28,901 nucleotides of DNA, taken from a virus. A program made the position numbers and the translations under genes. Below are positions 5,725-21,500 of the stretch, piece by piece; position 1 is the stretch's first letter; every line of letters begins with the position of its first letter. Where the stretch lies: positions 1-28,901 of the IMG/VR virus record IMGVR_UViG_3300009075_000154, one strand, 5' to 3'. The notes under the pieces are model-generated. The model was not told the origin of the DNA, made no database searches, and worked only from the letters and a program-made list of their open reading frames with translations.

Positions 5725-6044
5725 CAGTTCAGGCTTGGCTCTTTATCAACCGGACAAAGAAACATTGGCTTTTGGTGTGCGCTTACATAGTGACCACAAC
5801 GGCCACATATCGGCTCTTTCCAAGTAGTTGTTATATTGATCGGGTGAAATGAATTACCGAAAGTGTATTGCGAAACGAATATCTTACCAAAGAATAATAT
5901 TTTCAGGCGTTCTTTCCATGTAGCCTTGAAGCAAGCTGTCATTGCTCCTTGTGGTGGGCCTTCGTAACAAACTGGTAGTGGATTATACTGTTCCTGAGAT
6001 TCTGCAAGGATTAAGTTTTGCCCTTGAAATTGTATTGCTTCCAT
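5724..6044 (-). CDS. Hypothetical phage protein with CxxC pair
   Basis: This 106-residue protein resembles a small conserved phage family in which a short proline-rich start (YNPLPVCYEG) is followed by TACFKATWKERLKILFFGKI, a tryptophan-arginine-leucine helix. That family is common in tailed phages but has no known role. An extra C-terminal part has CGRCGHYVSAHQKPMFLC, which could be a zinc ribbon (CxxC ... C). It is directly upstream of the overlapping glycosyltransferase trio. The assignment is from pattern recall. Confidence 0.62.
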   Translation of the reverse strand: MEAIQFQGQNLILAESQEQYNPLPVCYEGPPQGAMTACFKATWKERLKILFFGKIFVSQYTFGNSFHPINITTTWKEPICGRCGHYVSAHQKPMFLCPVDKEPSLN

Positions 6045-6115
6045 AAAAAAGAATGCGCCTTCAGAAATTGGGGTTTCATCCAGCGCACTTTTAAGTAGTA
6101 AACTACTGCCTTCAT
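6011..6115 (-). CDS. Possible 34-residue basic peptide
   Basis: A short frame starts at the ATG at 6115, seven bases after GGGAGC, one of the few Shine-Dalgarno-like sequences in the window. The product is rich in Lys, Arg, Trp and Tyr (starting MKAVVYYLKVRWMK) and overlaps the next gene start by 34 bases. It could be a leader peptide coupling translation of that gene, or chance. No homology is recognised. Confidence 0.22.
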   Translation of the reverse strand: MKAVVYYLKVRWMKPQFLKAHSFLWKQYNFKGKT

Positions 6116-6150
6116 TGCAAAGCTCCCAACTGCTTTACAATGCCCTCTTC

Positions 6151-7759: not shown

Positions 7760-8215
7760 CTATTTTATATCTTCTTCACTTTCACTTATATCAGGACTGT
7801 TTACGGTGGTGATAGGCGAAATATTAATAACTGGAGCAACAAACGCTTTTCCATCAGCACCAGTAACCTCTTGCCTTTCGACATACCCTCTTTTCTTGCC
7901 TTTTGTTTTTAAAAGAAAAATCGTTGCTGCGGTATCCTGAGCCGAAATTAAAGTATGCAGTGCGTTCTCTGCCCAATCCAAAACAAGGTCATCCAGCTTG
8001 CGGTATTCCTTTTCGTATTCAGGAAACTTCTCCAACCAATCATAGTGTGTTTGCCTCTGAATACCAATAGACCGACAGGCAATAGTTACTATCCCAAGGC
8101 TGGATTCTAAGGCCTTGAGCATCTTTCTTTGTTTTAATGTAAGTTTATGCCTCGGGTACTTTTTTCTTCCCGGTGTATCAATCACTTGATTTTCAAGGCT
8201 TTGCTGTTCTTCCAT
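7760..8215 (-). CDS. terS: Terminase small subunit
   Basis: A 151-residue DNA-recognition subunit of the packaging terminase. It has a basic N-terminus, LTLKQRKMLKALE, then a helix-turn-helix (IVTIACRSIGIQRQTHYDWL, about 42-61). A helical oligomerisation part (WAENALHTLISAQDTAATIF) and the GKKRGYVERQEVTG segment, common in small terminases, come after it. The start overlaps the folE stop by one base (TAATG), which places packaging genes in the same transcript as the 7-deazaguanine genes. This is followed directly by terL. Confidence 0.88.
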   Translation of the reverse strand: MEEQQSLENQVIDTPGRKKYPRHKLTLKQRKMLKALESSLGIVTIACRSIGIQRQTHYDWLEKFPEYEKEYRKLDDLVLDWAENALHTLISAQDTAATIFLLKTKGKKRGYVERQEVTGADGKAFVAPVINISPITTVNSPDISESEEDIK

Positions 8216-8790
8216 TATTGTACAAATTTAAAAAATTCCTGTTTAGCGGAATCATCTTCTTTGAATATTCCCATTAATTTGGTCGTAGTTGTCCAAGTAT
8301 CGTGCTTTTTCACACCTCTCATGCACATACAAAGGTGCTGCGCCTTCATTGTTACGGCCACCCCCTTCGGGGCTATTTCCTTCATTAGCCTCTCTGCTAT
8401 TTGCTGGGTGATTCGTTCTTGGTTTTGCAGCCTATTTGCATAGAGGTCAACCACTCTTGCCAATTTCGAAAGACCAACTACCTTGCCGTCCGGAATATAC
8501 GCAACTGCTGCTGTTCCAAAAAAGGGAGCAATATGGTGTTCACAAAGCGAATAGAAGGGAATGCCTGACTGAATAACCATTTCATCAATGGCGCCATCGG
8601 TAAAGGAGGTAAATTTGAATTCAGGCGGTGATAGGAATTCCCTCATGAATTTGATATATCTTCTTGGCGTATCCTTCAGCCCCTCCCTGTCAGTATCCTC
8701 ACCAAGTGACTTCAGTATTTGTTGGAAGTGCCATTCTGGTGAATTTATAGAATATTCCATACTTTGTGCTGCTGAATTGAAAGTTTCCAT
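8215..8790 (-). CDS. folE: GTP cyclohydrolase I
   Basis: The enzyme turns GTP into dihydroneopterin triphosphate, the first step of 7-deazaguanine synthesis. Signatures are clear: [12 protein letters not shown] with the zinc cysteine and histidine, [34 protein letters not shown], and [11 protein letters not shown] with the second zinc cysteine. Several starts are possible: 8808 overlaps queE by 64 bases, 8790 by 46 and 8760 by 16. None has a Shine-Dalgarno sequence, and 8790 is a compromise. In a phage with queC, queD, queE and a DpdA-like gene next to it, the role is DNA-base modification rather than folate. Confidence 0.93.
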
Positions 8791-9350
8791 ACTGGGTTCT
8801 GTTTGCATAATTCAATACAATGCTTTAGGTTCTTAGAGTTTATAGTGAATCCGTCAGAGTGTGGGCTGATCCAATAATGTTTAGCATTTACGGAAGGTTG
8901 CGGAATGTGTTGCCCTGAGTGACGGACATATCTTAATTCAGTGACCCCTTCAGGAAAATTCTTCTTTACGACATGCTCCGCTACCTTTGGAGATACACAG
9001 ATAAAGTCTATCCCTGCTGGTGCTGGCCGTAGCCCGGATGTTTCTACTGCTTGGAAATATCCTTGATCCTTGAAGAACCTTATATGCTCTTCTGTTAGTT
9101 GATCCAGAGGCTCACCGCCCGTCCACGTTATTTCACCACAACCGATTGCGTTGTTTTTTATCCACTGGATCAGTTCAGGTAATTGATATTCCTTGCCTGA
9201 TTCGTATTCAGTATCGCACATCACCCCTGACTGAAAGCATGCGTGTTTGGCACTGCACCCCTGAAGACGGATAAAGACGGTAGGCGTTCCGGCTCTTGCC
9301 CCCTCCCCTTGCAGGGAATAAAATATTTCGCTGACATTAAGTGTAAGCAT
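8745..9350 (-). CDS. queE: 7-carboxy-7-deazaguanine synthase (radical SAM)
   Basis: A 201-residue radical-SAM enzyme that contracts the ring of 6-carboxytetrahydropterin to 7-carboxy-7-deazaguanine. Evidence: the N-terminal [20 protein letters not shown] typical of QueE, three cysteines for the iron-sulfur cluster at 32, 38 and 45, the CDTEY that closes the cluster loop, and TWTGGEPL at 75-82. The cysteine spacing is C-x5-C-x6-C, wider than the usual C-x3-C-x2-C. QueE proteins are known to vary here, so this is likely a natural loop insertion. It sits between queD and folE in the operon. Confidence 0.92.
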
Positions 9351-9361
9351 TGACTTTAGTT

Positions 9362-9784
9362 TTAGAATTTATCAAGCTTGTAAGTAGCCGAACATTTTCG
9401 TGTTTCCTCTACCTTACATTCAATAAGAGTTACCCCCGTTCCTTCCAGCTCAATAGGCGCAATCACCTCAACAATGAATTTTGCAAGGTTTTCGGCTGTA
9501 GGATTAAATGAGCAGATGATAACGGTATTATCCAGTTCATAAAGAAGGTCGCAAAGTGGGTCTTTCTCCCAAACCAGAAACTTATGATCTATCCAGTCCT
9601 CCAGATACATACAGAGCTTGGACTTAATCACGGAGAAATCAATCACCCTCCCTATTGAATCCAGCTCCCCGGCACAAACGAAATGAACCCTGTAATTGTG
9701 GCCGTGCAGGTGTGCACACTTGCTTTCATGGCCATATACACGGTGGCCGCAGCTAATGTCGTGATACCTTTCTGCTGTTGTCAT
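9362..9784 (-). CDS. queD: 6-carboxy-5,6,7,8-tetrahydropterin synthase
   Basis: The 140-residue QueD converts dihydroneopterin triphosphate to 6-carboxytetrahydropterin. With the start at 9784, the zinc histidines are H14, H27 and H29 (SCGHR and LHGHNY), and the catalytic cysteine is C23. FNPTAENLA and the glutamate of VEETRKC complete the signature. An in-frame GTG six bases earlier is rejected: the ATG overlaps the queC stop as ATGA and has AAAGGGGGTG, a real Shine-Dalgarno sequence, about five bases before it, which is rare in this window. Confidence 0.93.
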   Translation of the reverse strand: MTTAERYHDISCGHRVYGHESKCAHLHGHNYRVHFVCAGELDSIGRVIDFSVIKSKLCMYLEDWIDHKFLVWEKDPLCDLLYELDNTVIICSFNPTAENLAKFIVEVIAPIELEGTGVTLIECKVEETRKCSATYKLDKF

Positions 9785-10446
9785 AACCACCCCCTTTCTT
9801 TTGCTTCGTACCAGCCCTTTGCTCTTAGGGAGGTCGCAGGGTTATCAATATCACCAAAGCCCCATTCATTTTTTTTCATTGAACCGTTGTAATCGGTTAC
9901 AGAAAGCTCAATAACGATATCTAAGCATCCAAGGTCTTTTGCAAGTTTCCATGTTTCGGCTTTTGTTAGGTACATGAGCGGAGTGTGAATACGAAAATCA
10001 CCGCCACCGATGCCCAGCGACATAGCAAGCTGTAGTGCATCAATGGTATTTCTCCGGCAATCCGGGTATCCAGAATAGTCCGTTTGGCAAACGCCAGTAA
10101 CTATATCGGTTATCCCGTTTTCGGCCGCAAAGCTCCCTGCAATGGTTAAAAACAGTAGGTTTCTTCCGGGTGTAAATGAAGCAGGGAGGGTTGGATCGAG
10201 ATAAGAGGCTTTATTATGGTCTGAGTGTTCAATCAATGAACTCTTTGCCAGCAGTCCTTTGATATCGAATAACTTGTATTCTACACCGAACTTTTCAGCA
10301 ATAATTTTTGCCTGACTTAACTCAATTACATGGCTCTGTCCATAATCGAACCCAATTGCGACAACATGGTCGAATTGTTTAACTGCCCATGCAAGGCAAG
10401 TGGTTGAATCCTGACCGCCACTAAGTAGCACAACAGCTTTTTTCAT
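9781..10446 (-). CDS. queC: 7-cyano-7-deazaguanine synthase, variant C-terminus
   Basis: QueC makes preQ0 from 7-carboxy-7-deazaguanine, ammonia and ATP. This 221-residue protein has the PP-loop SGGQDST (9-15), FTPGRNLLFL, GVCQTDYSGYPDCR and TPLMYLTKAETW. The end is odd. Ordinary QueC has a zinc site, TCYNG followed by CGxCxxC before LRAxG. Here TCYNG is TDYNG (184-188) and the region before LRAKG reads GFGDIDNPATS with no cysteine, so all four zinc ligands are gone. Either an alternative fold replaces the zinc knuckle, or this is a variant branch of QueC. The leader word CTACGCA stands before the start. Confidence 0.9.
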   Translation of the reverse strand: MKKAVVLLSGGQDSTTCLAWAVKQFDHVVAIGFDYGQSHVIELSQAKIIAEKFGVEYKLFDIKGLLAKSSLIEHSDHNKASYLDPTLPASFTPGRNLLFLTIAGSFAAENGITDIVTGVCQTDYSGYPDCRRNTIDALQLAMSLGIGGGDFRIHTPLMYLTKAETWKLAKDLGCLDIVIELSVTDYNGSMKKNEWGFGDIDNPATSLRAKGWYEAKERGWL

Positions 10447-14322: not shown

Positions 14323-14340
14323 CAAACCATCCGTGTATTG

Positions 14341-14416
14341 TAAGGGGAACGGGAGTCGAACCCGTACCTTGGTTTGTATCTAACGCACCAGCGTTTTCCA
14401 GTTTCGCCATCCCCTT
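14341..14416 (-). tRNA. tRNA-like gene, anticodon uncertain (TAG, Leu possible)
   Basis: On the minus strand a perfect 7-bp acceptor stem (AAGGGGA with TCCCCTT), a 3-bp D stem (GCG/CGC) with ACTGG in its loop, a perfect 5-bp T stem with loop TTCGACT and an A discriminator make a 76-base tRNA. The D arm is like that of leucine tRNAs. The anticodon arm is poor: GGT and ACC pair around 13 bases that contain T-TAG-A (leucine if read normally). There is no long variable arm as leucine would need. No CCA is encoded. Confidence 0.68.
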
Positions 14417-17257: not shown

Positions 17258-17283
17258 AAAAAAGGCCGGGAGTTACCCCGGCC
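17258..17283 (-). terminator. Rho-independent terminator after DUF932 gene
   Basis: On the minus strand GGCCGGG, loop GTAACT, CCCGGCC (17283-17264) is a perfect 7-bp GC stem followed by six Ts. It stands eight bases after the DUF932 stop. Twenty bases downstream begins the next gene at 17238 with the leader word between, so that gene needs readthrough or an unseen promoter. Confidence 0.88.
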
Positions 17284-18773: not shown

Positions 18774-19177
18774 CTTTTATATTTTTCAAGTGATCGGTGA
18801 AGGTTTTTATAATTCAGTGGCGTAAACTGCAACACTGTCCATCCATCACTTTGAGCCGCATTCAGTTTTTCCATATCTCCAGTGTATCCGGTAACGGTTG
18901 TATGTCTGCTCTTATTTGAGAAAATTCCATTGTACTCAATGGCCAATTTCAATGCAGGTATGCACCAATCGAATCTCCACTTACGTTCCACGTGAAACTT
19001 AAACTCATCTTCCAGTGTATATGCATTTTCATTGCACCAATACCATAAGTTCCAAGCGATCCAATCTTTTTCAACACTTCTATGCTTTACTTTCACTGGA
19101 GTTGCTTTCGTTTTGTTGATAAGATGCTTATTCAAATGAGCAACAGCTGTTTTTGTTATATCAAATCTTCTTCTCAT
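18770..19177 (-). CDS. Nuclease-like protein (VRR-NUC/DUF559-type PD-(D/E)XK)
   Basis: A 135-residue basic protein. The part RKWRFDWCIPALKLAIEYNG (65-84) has the strand pair of restriction-type nucleases, with D70 and E81 at the catalytic positions. The following GRH-like turn SRHTTVTGY and NAAQSDGWTVLQFTP resemble VRR-NUC and DUF559 domains. Such small proteins may act as junction resolvases or repair nucleases. It is coupled to DnaB upstream (ATGA overlap) and to the ASCH gene downstream. Confidence 0.7.
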   Translation of the reverse strand: MRRRFDITKTAVAHLNKHLINKTKATPVKVKHRSVEKDWIAWNLWYWCNENAYTLEDEFKFHVERKWRFDWCIPALKLAIEYNGIFSNKSRHTTVTGYTGDMEKLNAAQSDGWTVLQFTPLNYKNLHRSLEKYKR

Positions 19178-20589
19178 AAATCTATGCTGGTTTGTACCGG
19201 AATATATCCATCCATGGAACCGGGAGCTGAATGTTTTTTATACTCAATGATTTTTTGAATCTCTGAATGAAATTCCAACTCAACTTTTAATAGAATTCCA
19301 TCTCTGTTTTTTGCAATCTTTGCATACCTCCGGTTAAGTAGGCTGGCATCATCCAGAATTTGTTCATCCTCCGGCCCATATAGAAAAATAACCATATCCG
19401 CATCCTGTTCAATAGCCCCTGATTCCCGTAGGTCGGATAACATAGGCTCTCTCTTGCTTCCGGTTCTTTTCTCTATGTCTCTGCTCATTTGGCTCAATGC
19501 AATAATTGGAATATCCAACTCTTTTGAAAGAAGTTTTAAGCCCCTGCTTATTGTACTAATTTCCTGCTCCCGATTCTTTCCTCTTGTTTCGTCACCGCCT
19601 GTCATTAATTGCAGGTAGTCGACAATAATCAACCCAACTCCTTTTTTCTTTTTCAGCCTCCTTGCTTTTGCTCTGAATGATCTCAATGTCAACGAACTAT
19701 CTTCATCAAAAATTATATCCATCTTTGCTAACCGATCAGCGGCCGTGTATACTTGCTTCATTTGATCATCATCAACCTTACCCGTCTGAAGCCTATTGAG
19801 CCATATCTCCGATTCACTTGAAAGCATTCTGATAACATTTTGTATTGAAGTCATTTCAAGAGAAAACACCGCCACAGGTACACCCTTCTGCTCATTTGCT
19901 GCTTTTGCTAAGATGATAGCCAGTGCTGATTTCCCCACAGAAGGCCTTGCTGCTAATATAATGAGGCCGGGATGCCATCCTTTCGTTGCCCTGTCAAGTG
20001 TCGGGAATCCAGAAGGAATGCCTGTTACAGAGCTATCCAGAGTACGATAATGTTCTATTTTCTTAATTGCATCCACAACCACGTTAGAAATATGGCTCAT
20101 TTGGTCTTTGGTGCGAATATTTCCAATACTGAGAATTTTCTGCTCTGATTGATCCAGTAGATCGAAAACATCAATATCATCATTATACGCCTCATACAAT
20201 ATTTCTGAACTTTTTCTTATAAGCTCCCTCTGTATGTATTTCTGTAAAATTATTGCGCAGTAAGTGTCGATGTTTGCGGTACTGGTAACATTATCGGTGA
20301 GTTTAGTAAGAACAAATGCCCCTCCAATCCTTTCAAGCTCACCCATTGATTTTAGTTCCTGAACCAGAGTTAGTAAGTCAGGAACAGCTCTGTTTTTTGT
20401 TATTCTGGTAATTGCCCTGAAAATAGTTCTATGATCTTCACTATAGAATACTTCTTCTGTTACCATGTCCTCAATTCTTTCAAAAATACCTCTCTCAAGT
20501 AAAACAGCACCAAGGACTGCTTTTTCGATCTCAATTGACTGAGGTGGGATTTTCCCAATGGGCAAATTATATCCGATTTCTTTTTTCAT
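19174..20589 (-). CDS. dnaB: Replicative DNA helicase, DnaB type
   Basis: A 471-residue hexameric helicase, full length for the family. The N-terminal domain opens IPPQSIEIEKAVLGAVLLE. The Walker A loop is ARPSVGKSA (214-222), Walker B is IIVDYLQLM (near 321-329), and the arginine-rich end SDLRESGAIEQDAD closes the RecA-like core. A TTG six bases upstream is ignored: the ATG at 20589 follows the stop of the DUF4373 gene by two bases. The helicase and its presumed loader are therefore produced together, under the structured leader at 21.4 kb. Confidence 0.95.
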   Translation of the reverse strand: MKKEIGYNLPIGKIPPQSIEIEKAVLGAVLLERGIFERIEDMVTEEVFYSEDHRTIFRAITRITKNRAVPDLLTLVQELKSMGELERIGGAFVLTKLTDNVTSTANIDTYCAIILQKYIQRELIRKSSEILYEAYNDDIDVFDLLDQSEQKILSIGNIRTKDQMSHISNVVVDAIKKIEHYRTLDSSVTGIPSGFPTLDRATKGWHPGLIILAARPSVGKSALAIILAKAANEQKGVPVAVFSLEMTSIQNVIRMLSSESEIWLNRLQTGKVDDDQMKQVYTAADRLAKMDIIFDEDSSLTLRSFRAKARRLKKKKGVGLIIVDYLQLMTGGDETRGKNREQEISTISRGLKLLSKELDIPIIALSQMSRDIEKRTGSKREPMLSDLRESGAIEQDADMVIFLYGPEDEQILDDASLLNRRYAKIAKNRDGILLKVELEFHSEIQKIIEYKKHSAPGSMDGYIPVQTSIDL

Positions 20590-20591
20590 AT

Positions 20592-21365
20592 TCAAGATTT
20601 TTCCATTAGTTCACGATCCCTTTTTTCCCTTGGCGATTCTGTACCAATAAAGAGGTTGCTTGGCGGTCGGGCTTTGAATTTAGATTCCCTCATATCCCGT
20701 AGCATCCAGTTCCTTACTGCTGCTATCCAGTCGATATACTTGGCATTTTTCTGTTTAGAATAATTCAATGCACTTTCATAGTAAAAATCCAAGTCAGCAT
20801 CTTGGTATTTGGTTCCGAAAAATTGTTCTTTAAATTTACGTTCATCATAGAATTCAGAATCAACAAAAGAGTGCGGCTTATTATTATTATTTACTTTTAT
20901 TTTATTTTCTTTTATTTTATTTGTTGGCGTTTGTTCAACACCTGTTAACACCTGTTGAGTAGCTGTTCTATTAGATTGATTATCAATATTCTTTTTTCTT
21001 GCTTCAGCACTTGCCTTACCTGCTTTTTGCTTTATTAATGACAAATTTGACCTCTCATTCTTATTGGCAAAAACACGTCTGCTGAACACATAACCATCTT
21101 CTATCGACAGAAGTCCACTTGTGTTCAACACCTGTTCAATTCTGTTGACATCGTGTTCAGTTGTGTTGGATATTCTTGTATAGAATTTGATATACTGCTT
21201 GTATGCTTCCTCCGAAATCTTACCCTCCGGCTCTTGGTGAAGAATCTCAATTAGTATCCAATACATACCTAATCCTGCAATCCCGGCCTCAGATAGAAGA
21301 ATCATTATTTTAGGGTCTGAGTGGGCATTTGTGTCGTGGGAGAAATAGAACGCATCTTTTTTCAT
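20592..21365 (-). CDS. DUF4373 replication protein (helicase-loader type)
   Basis: A 257-residue protein with the Lin1244/Lin1753-type N-terminus, MKKDAFYFSHDTNAHSDPKI, then GLGMYWILIEILHQ and DVNRIEQVLNTSGLLSIE. The middle is low-complexity and Asn/Lys-rich (about 143-165). The C-terminus, YIDWIAAVRNWMLRDMRES, recalls DnaD-like loaders. It probably acts at the origin with the DnaB helicase just downstream. The start is secure from the conserved N-terminus. A terminator ends only five bases before the ATG. GTT-phased repeats and an AT-rich stretch inside the gene could be the replication origin. Confidence 0.82.
   Translation of the reverse strand: MKKDAFYFSHDTNAHSDPKIMILLSEAGIAGLGMYWILIEILHQEPEGKISEEAYKQYIKFYTRISNTTEHDVNRIEQVLNTSGLLSIEDGYVFSRRVFANKNERSNLSLIKQKAGKASAEARKKNIDNQSNRTATQQVLTGVEQTPTNKIKENKIKVNNNNKPHSFVDSEFYDERKFKEQFFGTKYQDADLDFYYESALNYSKQKNAKYIDWIAAVRNWMLRDMRESKFKARPPSNLFIGTESPREKRDRELMEKS
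20881..21172. other. Candidate replication origin inside the DUF4373 gene
   Basis: AACACCTGTT occurs three times (20937, 20947 and 21127). Around these, GTT recurs every 10-11 bases in two clusters (about 20924-20970 and 21120-21170). An almost pure AT stretch lies next to the first cluster (20881-20922). Short direct repeats beside an AT-rich element within the initiator gene is the layout of lambda-type origins. The repeats also encode Val, Gln, Glu, Asn and Thr residues, so coding constraint alone could explain them. Confidence 0.35.
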
Positions 21366-21370
21366 GAAAT

Positions 21371-21455
21371 AAAAAAGGGTGAATCAGGTAGCAGTCTGAA
21401 ACACCCTCTGAGGTCAGAAGTAAGCACATTCTCTGCTGCTACTCAGCGAATGTGC
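21371..21455 (-). promoter_or_regulatory. Structured leader with terminator before the replication genes
   Basis: On the minus strand the first hairpin is GCACATTC/GAATGTGC (21455-21448 with 21431-21424) with an inner GCTG/CAGC. The second is GGGTG/CACCC (21406-21402 with 21381-21377) with inner TCAG/CTGA, followed by six Ts and then the ATG of the replication gene five bases later. GTAGCAG in the first hairpin and CTGCTAC in the second loop are perfectly complementary. This looks like an attenuator. A weak promoter-like TAATTTTA lies just upstream at about 21462-21475. Confidence 0.68.
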
Positions 21456-21500
21456 CTTATTAAGTCTAAAATTAATGGATTGATCTTTAGGAAACATATT

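Follow-up and report, generated by a model that had tools for sequence, protein, structure and literature searches.

Complementary hairpin loops ahead of phage replication operons point to an undescribed RNA control element in Bacteroidota phages

INTRODUCTION

In phage P4, the CI RNA guards the replication genes, and the operon is stopped early through complementary segments in a same-strand leader (as described in the accessible part of PMC4825925), an arrangement like the one proposed for the leader reported here. The P4 RNA, however, is processed and acts in trans, with two target sites, whereas our leader carries the complement in the loop of a predicted intrinsic terminator that precedes the first gene. 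The C4 RNA of phage P1 (Rfam RF01695, c4 antisense RNA) likewise brings about an early stop by complementary leader segments. The put RNA of phage HK022, which acts on termination, is likewise a pair of stem-loops and opens the early transcripts at their 5' end; unlike the leader described here, put has fixed sequences and acts on downstream terminators.

Among plasmids, the attenuator of pT181-type rep genes combines a replication-gene leader, an intrinsic terminator, and recognition between kissing hairpins (available text of PMC4878617), all of which are also predicted here. Control of pT181 relies on an antisense RNA and on an anti-terminator that takes one terminator arm, whereas no antisense promoter with the -7 box TANNTTTG was seen for our leader and the conserved complementarity found is with the terminator loop. 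RNA I and RNA II of ColE1 also recognize each other loop to loop, and their loops diversify while complementarity is kept, according to the excerpted text of PMC9458437. They are two molecules that control a primer without terminator attenuation, while here both loops belong to one RNA. The ColE1 RNAs kiss through 7-nt loops, and the Rom/Rop protein reads the shape of the complex. Finally, the ANTAR dual-stem-loop antiterminators resemble our case in that a pair of stem-loops shares a leader with an intrinsic terminator (available part of PMC3369936), but A1 and G4 are constant in their loops, which give rise to an alternative antiterminator structure, whereas the loops described here vary and pair mutually.

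Searches of open-licence PMC papers for such an element or its nearest kin named none and brought up nothing on how Bacteroidota phages might control their replication by RNA, and the accessible part of a 2010 candidate-RNA survey lists no such element (PMC2864571). Attenuation and kissing are known principles; what looks new is that they are combined in cis at a terminator loop, and that the combination is spread across phages of Bacteroidota.

RESULTS AND DISCUSSION

Leader anatomy in the window

The window is the whole stretch of DNA that was analysed, a virus record of 28,901 bases. All the genes around the gap at 21,366–21,500 are on the minus strand, and the leader therefore reads from 21500 to 21366. 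It is flanked by a 67-aa gene (QSregVF_b, PF12843, E 4.6e-6) on one side and, on the other, by a 257-aa Lin1244/DUF4373-type gene, whose product matches the replication initiation protein phrog_2562 in PHROGs (E 2.2e-11). The features are as follows:

21467..21474, minus strand: near match to the -7 promoter box, TAATTTTA, differing from TANNTTTG at one position and beginning 17 nt upstream of H1
21422..21457, minus strand: H1, the 5' hairpin (10 bp plus an inner 3 bp), with the 8-nt loop AGTAGCAG; from the fold, layout conserved
21436..21442, minus strand: K1, GTAGCAG, kissing word of the H1 loop, GTNNNAG type
21407..21418, minus strand: possible middle stem TCTGA/TCAGA, weak, outside the minimum-energy fold
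21374..21409, minus strand: H2, predicted intrinsic-terminator hairpin (8 bp plus an inner 4 bp), with the 8-nt loop ACTGCTAC; from the fold and the scan
21388..21394, minus strand: K2, CTGCTAC, kissing word of the H2 loop, complement of K1
21371..21376, minus strand: run of six Ts, then ATTTC and the ATG at 21365
20592..21365, minus strand: putatively controlled gene, 257-aa Lin1244/DUF4373-type replication initiation protein (PF14297, E 2.4e-9)
19174..20595, minus strand: next operon gene, replicative DnaB-type helicase (PF03796, E 5.4e-86)

The two hairpins that the original prediction had placed in this 135-base gap are present, and so is the run of six Ts, which stops five bases short of the ATG; the G+C-rich stem followed by a T run makes H2 a predicted intrinsic terminator. 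The claimed complementarity between GTAGCAG and CTGCTAC is a perfect one of 7 bp, loop to loop, as both words lie inside apical loops. When both strands of the window were scanned for a terminator and an upstream hairpin with complementary loops, this leader was the top match, with a score of 58 against a best of 50.5 in 24 minus-strand shuffles, and none of 10,000 shuffles of the gap scored as well. The predicted RNA fold of the gap was better than that of 200 of 200 shuffles (z −3.74). A small middle stem had been proposed as well, and it can be read as TCTGACCTCAGA (21418–21407), but it is weak: its loop has just 2–4 nt, and it overlaps the foot of H2.

The same scan gave a second candidate in the window, which was the second-best minus-strand match (51.5, against 50.5 for the best shuffle):

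6045..6142, minus strand: second, weaker candidate with the same layout (H1 6142–6113, H2 6089–6052, a T run, and an ATG at 6044)

Its loop words, AGTTGGG/CCCAATT, include one G-U pair and are orthogonal to those of the main leader, and it precedes a 106-aa ORF. It has no promoter box, was missed by the covariance model described below (R1), and is absent before the one relative of the gene inspected, in locus L072.

Searching the window against Rfam 15 gave only a tRNA at the gathering score, the c4 antisense RNA being unmatched, and no match at E ≤ 1 was obtained in 21 relative loci. The window carries a tRNA-Ser gene with anticodon AGA (14340–14416, minus strand) and, at 17283–17264 on the minus strand, a hairpin (GGCCGGG...CCCGGCC) with six Ts behind it that looks like a very strong terminator. 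Four adjacent genes at 8215–10446 (minus strand) resemble folE, queE, queD, and queC, presumably the 7-deazaguanine set; gene sets of this type occur in phages with modified DNA.

Distribution, layout, and promoter

Over 305 loci (2.45 Mb, overlapping and redundant), the scan detected 165 elements closely followed by an ATG, compared with 2 when each locus was shuffled once, and at a score of at least 52 there were 119 elements against 0. They amount to 74 distinct elements, 53 of them before Lin1244-like genes. The element scans require a stem directly around the loop and, since they admit G-U only, a comparison of G-U with A-C in the kissing words is uninformative. Six matches against 0 were obtained in 80 bacterial genome loci, and of these only L308 and L382, both from Chitinophagaceae bins, were judged convincing. 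One other survey covered 77 of 80 loci (all except L120, L123, and L175).

Where the Lin1244 gene is not the first in its operon, the leader stands before the gene that is, for example a primase-helicase gene (L169, L308) or a GIY-YIG-like one (L058). The same leader was also seen before genes for NUMOD4/HNH endonucleases (L226, L210) and an HNH-type protein (L276), and before a PAPS-reductase-like gene (L246). The element was rightly taken for an attenuator-like leader, and it is conserved, but in view of these other genes and of the second candidate in the window it had been drawn too narrowly as a leader of replication genes. A strong element at 13944 of L087, plus strand (GTAGAGTA/TGCTCTAC, score 55.5), has no ATG-started ORF within 30 nt.

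For the counts of promoters, strands, and antisense boxes, a set of 46 non-redundant elements was used, from which 11 weak elements and the matches in four genome loci had been dropped by eye. The distance from the start of H1 to the ATG is 85–104 nt in 38 of the 46, the T run starts 6–24 nt before the ATG, and the kissing pairing measures 6–12 bp, mostly 7–8. The loop words of H1 are highly diverse, with 43 different ones among the 46, and the two loops with conserved A1 and G4 that define ANTAR targets were not found.

In Bacteroides, the primary sigma factor has the motif TANNTTTG as its -7 element, as was confirmed in Flavobacterium (available part of PMC7366714). The motif was found at most 40 nt before H1 in 34 of 45 elements, whereas the region from −100 to −58 had it in 2 of 45 and shuffles averaged 1.9; the box of the window itself is only a near match. 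Because the -7 box stands just before H1, the RNA would start there and the leader would be about 90 nt long, and we consider it very likely, from these positions, that the leader RNA begins at H1. The repeated order of promoter, hairpin, terminator, and start codon is what suggests an attenuator.

Complementarity is kept in relatives

A protein search recovered 62 IMG/VR relatives of the 257-aa protein, and many of their upstream regions have the same layout with other loop words. So that elements would not be picked for their pairing, complementarity was excluded from the criteria of a blind set, which took every Lin1244-like ORF in the collection on the sole condition of a T run with a hairpin directly against it, near copies being removed. 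The 398 Lin1244-like ORFs gave 229 distinct upstream regions; 103 of these had a T run, in 71 cases with a hairpin at the run, and 32 non-redundant elements remained. The other 126 of the 229 lacked a T run in the 25 nt before the ATG.

In this set (n = 32), the H2 loop scored a mean of 17.6 against its own upstream 90 nt and 10.8 across loci, and none of 10,000 permutations did as well (largest permuted mean, 13.1). Scores of at least 16 were reached by 25 of the 32 elements. Seven fell below 16, and for L017, L099, L026, and L152 the low score is explained by a pairing word that, by eye, lies in an internal loop of H2, beside an extra hairpin. The element of L001, the closest protein relative (54%), is degenerate, with a weak T run and no clean H1, and ranked 4 in the blind test. 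Exact inverted words of at least 7 nt occur in 23 of the 32 elements, whereas direct repeats equally long occur in 2, which does not exceed the matching between loci. Some loci even carry the same two words in swapped orientation, GTCGCAT/ATGCGAC in L010, L033, and L135 and ATGCGAC/GTCGCAT in L007 and L048. Where a contig has two elements (the window, L246, L169, and L472), each pairs with itself and hardly with the other. The loop-loop pairing foreseen by the original prediction is therefore kept in relatives through many sequence changes, a pattern indicating that complementarity rather than particular letters is under selection.

Paired words adjoining a promoter and replication genes might also be expected of a DNA-level element, with inverted operator sites or origin hairpins in place of RNA, the more so as operators, too, differ between phages. 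This we regard as very improbable, given that only inverted copies are enriched and not direct ones, that the words sit in hairpin loops with covarying stems, that the T run is on the transcript strand, and that in 42 of the 46 elements the complement of this strand gives the poorer fold. The idea of a DNA operator was dropped on the comparison of direct with inverted repeats.

Soil phages and a covariance model

In a group of soil phages, the words located by position and ends alone proved to be perfect complements of the form GTNNNAG/CTNNNAC in 27 of 27 leaders, with five different centres, and GTAGCAG/CTGCTAC of the window fits this pattern. In the stems, 10 of 20 pairs have changed on both sides. 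A clearer middle hairpin than that of the window, AGGTT...AACCT, is readable in these relatives, and the consensus fold omits it.

A covariance search for a family had been suggested, and the model R1, built from the 27 soil-phage leaders, blind to kissing and with the window outside its training set, recovered the full leader of the window (21468–21363, minus strand; 30.4 bits, E 4.7e-5). Over 48 chosen sources, R1 gave 20 matches at E ≤ 1, 12 of which were below 1e-3. In the four genomes behind Bacteroidota loci, its matches were weak and chance-like, except for one candidate at E 3.3e-4.

The leader in cultured phages

Leaders precede the replication operons of the Flavobacterium phages sniff9-2, morran9-1, snusmum9-1, mumin6-1, elemoA, and FCV-1, of the Cellulophaga phages phi10:1 and phi19:1, and of the Tenacibaculum phage JQ. 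Those of phi10:1, phi19:1, and FCV-1 gp52 were recognized by direct reading and not by scans, and the T run is interrupted in phi10:1 and phi19:1. A strict scan of eight cultured records gave 2 matches, not above the 1 and 2 seen in shuffles, and both lie exactly on annotated starts of NUMOD4-type endonuclease genes, in sniff9-2 and FCV-1; a wider scan of these records plus the window gave 3 at a score of at least 50, against 1 in eight shuffle sets. The blastn search with the leader against cultured phages gave no match. In Porphyromonas phage 005b no element was found, bar one poor match on the strand opposite its genes there, and the coverage of PJN03 consists of the scans and one 50-nt gap.

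In five cultured phages checked, the first gene behind the leader encodes a small protein without a Pfam match (E 0.01), which could be the regulator of the leader:

L472 13679, L470 10495, L471 9214, L468 36091, and L473 35995: first gene, 69–78 aa

The second operon genes belong to different families, DUF6291 and HTH_36, so the leader goes with the operon and not with one protein. Endonuclease genes of the NUMOD4 type carry the leader at L473 40457 and L472 12589 as well as in L226 and L210, and the leader may help such mobile genes to carry a regulated promoter of their own.

Proximity to the start codon is not universal, as the T run lies 24–47 nt before the ATG in several cultured phages. 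This bears on a reading in which a kissing-locked hairpin beside the AUG would block ribosome entry in the read-through mRNA. The 6–24 nt between T run and ATG in the 46 elements would suit such translational control, and Bacteroidia starts need low structure, according to the available part of PMC9976891. We nevertheless find it rather doubtful, since the T run is kept and the ATG can be as far as 24–47 nt downstream.

The Flavobacterium phages also provide compensated alleles of the kissing words: GTGAGACG/CGTCTCAC in sniff, GTGAGAAG/CTTCTCAC in morran, GTGGAACG/CGTTCCAC in snusmum and mumin, and GTGAGATG/CATCTCAC in elemoA. Leaders of the sniff and mumin types are 91–93% identical over 136 nt, yet they are distinct in their kissing words, with changes at two positions that are both compensated. 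Of all differences between them, 4 of 10 and 4 of 12 lie within the 16 kissing bases (Fisher p 0.018 and 0.036). The Flavobacterium hosts LMO6 and LMO9 are common to two phage genera with compensated loop changes.

Such alleles are also compatible with a terminated leader RNA that would act in trans on the leaders of other genomes, for self-limitation or superinfection control, like the antisense RNAs of plasmids or phage P4, with loop words diversifying like compatibility groups. The position before replication genes, the variety of H1 words, and the differently compensated alleles in otherwise nearly identical leaders of LMO6/LMO9 phages speak for this, and in ColE1 the diversification of loops creates compatibility (excerpted text of PMC9458437). 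On the other hand, the partner lies in the same RNA, so pairing in cis should win, and in the rest of the contigs the kissing words occur no more often than expected (13, for an expectation of about 14). Control by an antisense RNA was sought through a TANNTTTG box on the opposite strand, between H2 and 120 nt inside the gene, and was not seen, the box being present in 1 of the 46 elements against a shuffle mean of 4.7. Overall, trans or copy-number control appears unlikely, if somewhat less so than the translational reading.

A terminator tuned by a kissing loop

We favour control in cis, and consider it probable that this leader of Bacteroidota phages is an RNA attenuator acting in cis, with loop-loop kissing as the means of tuning its terminator. 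A host-type promoter would start an RNA of ~90 nt at H1, and H2, an intrinsic terminator just before the first codon, would halt the RNA polymerase ahead of the replication operon unless it reads through. As H2 emerges, its loop (an internal loop in some relatives) would pair with that of H1, and this kissing would set the frequency of termination. Such an attenuator might, as the original prediction supposed, let the phage time its replication. That H2 terminates in the cell and that kissing acts within one RNA is what we infer from sequence. The original prediction had allowed for either a kissing or a switched structure, and of these kissing is the better fit: the common pairing of 7–8 bp in loops of 7–8 nt allows both hairpins to remain closed, whereas a switch would alternate two structures, and its target is the loop of the terminator and not an arm.

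Timing may be considered as well. The RNA footprint of RNA polymerase is about 14 nt, and the polymerase would be at the T run when the loop word exits, so that kissing and terminator nucleation would compete simultaneously. We judge it slightly more likely that kissing opposes termination, by capturing the terminator loop during nucleation, than that it favours it. In the opposite case, kissing would strengthen or lock the terminator, the leader being mainly an insulator or strong attenuator and a separate antitermination factor permitting expression of the operon. The closed stems are compatible with this, and the geometry of known kissing complexes likewise keeps both stems closed; yet a longer stem would be a simpler means to that end, and pairings of up to 12 bp reach the top of the H2 stem, which they would weaken. 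A locked terminator is thus possible, although less probable than not.

For the tuned attenuator, variable letters in a constant geometry would suit either a protein that reads shape or a private specificity between phages, and the matched but changing pairing letters across Bacteroidota phages point to an undescribed RNA control element. More speculatively, and with little confidence, we propose that cis kissing-loop terminators head the replication operons of Bacteroidota phages whatever the family of the initiator, and that the loop pair is a private, fast-changing code, comparable to a plasmid compatibility group, that would prevent cross-regulation in co-infection and let a resident phage silence the replication of its own kind. 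If the attenuator reading is right, it would provide a short, testable RNA element in cultured phages, for which natural compensatory alleles are available. Attenuation would gain a mode that is regulated at the terminator's loop instead of its stem, and the leader could serve as a model of the way in which phages of a shared host come to differ in RNA-RNA specificity.
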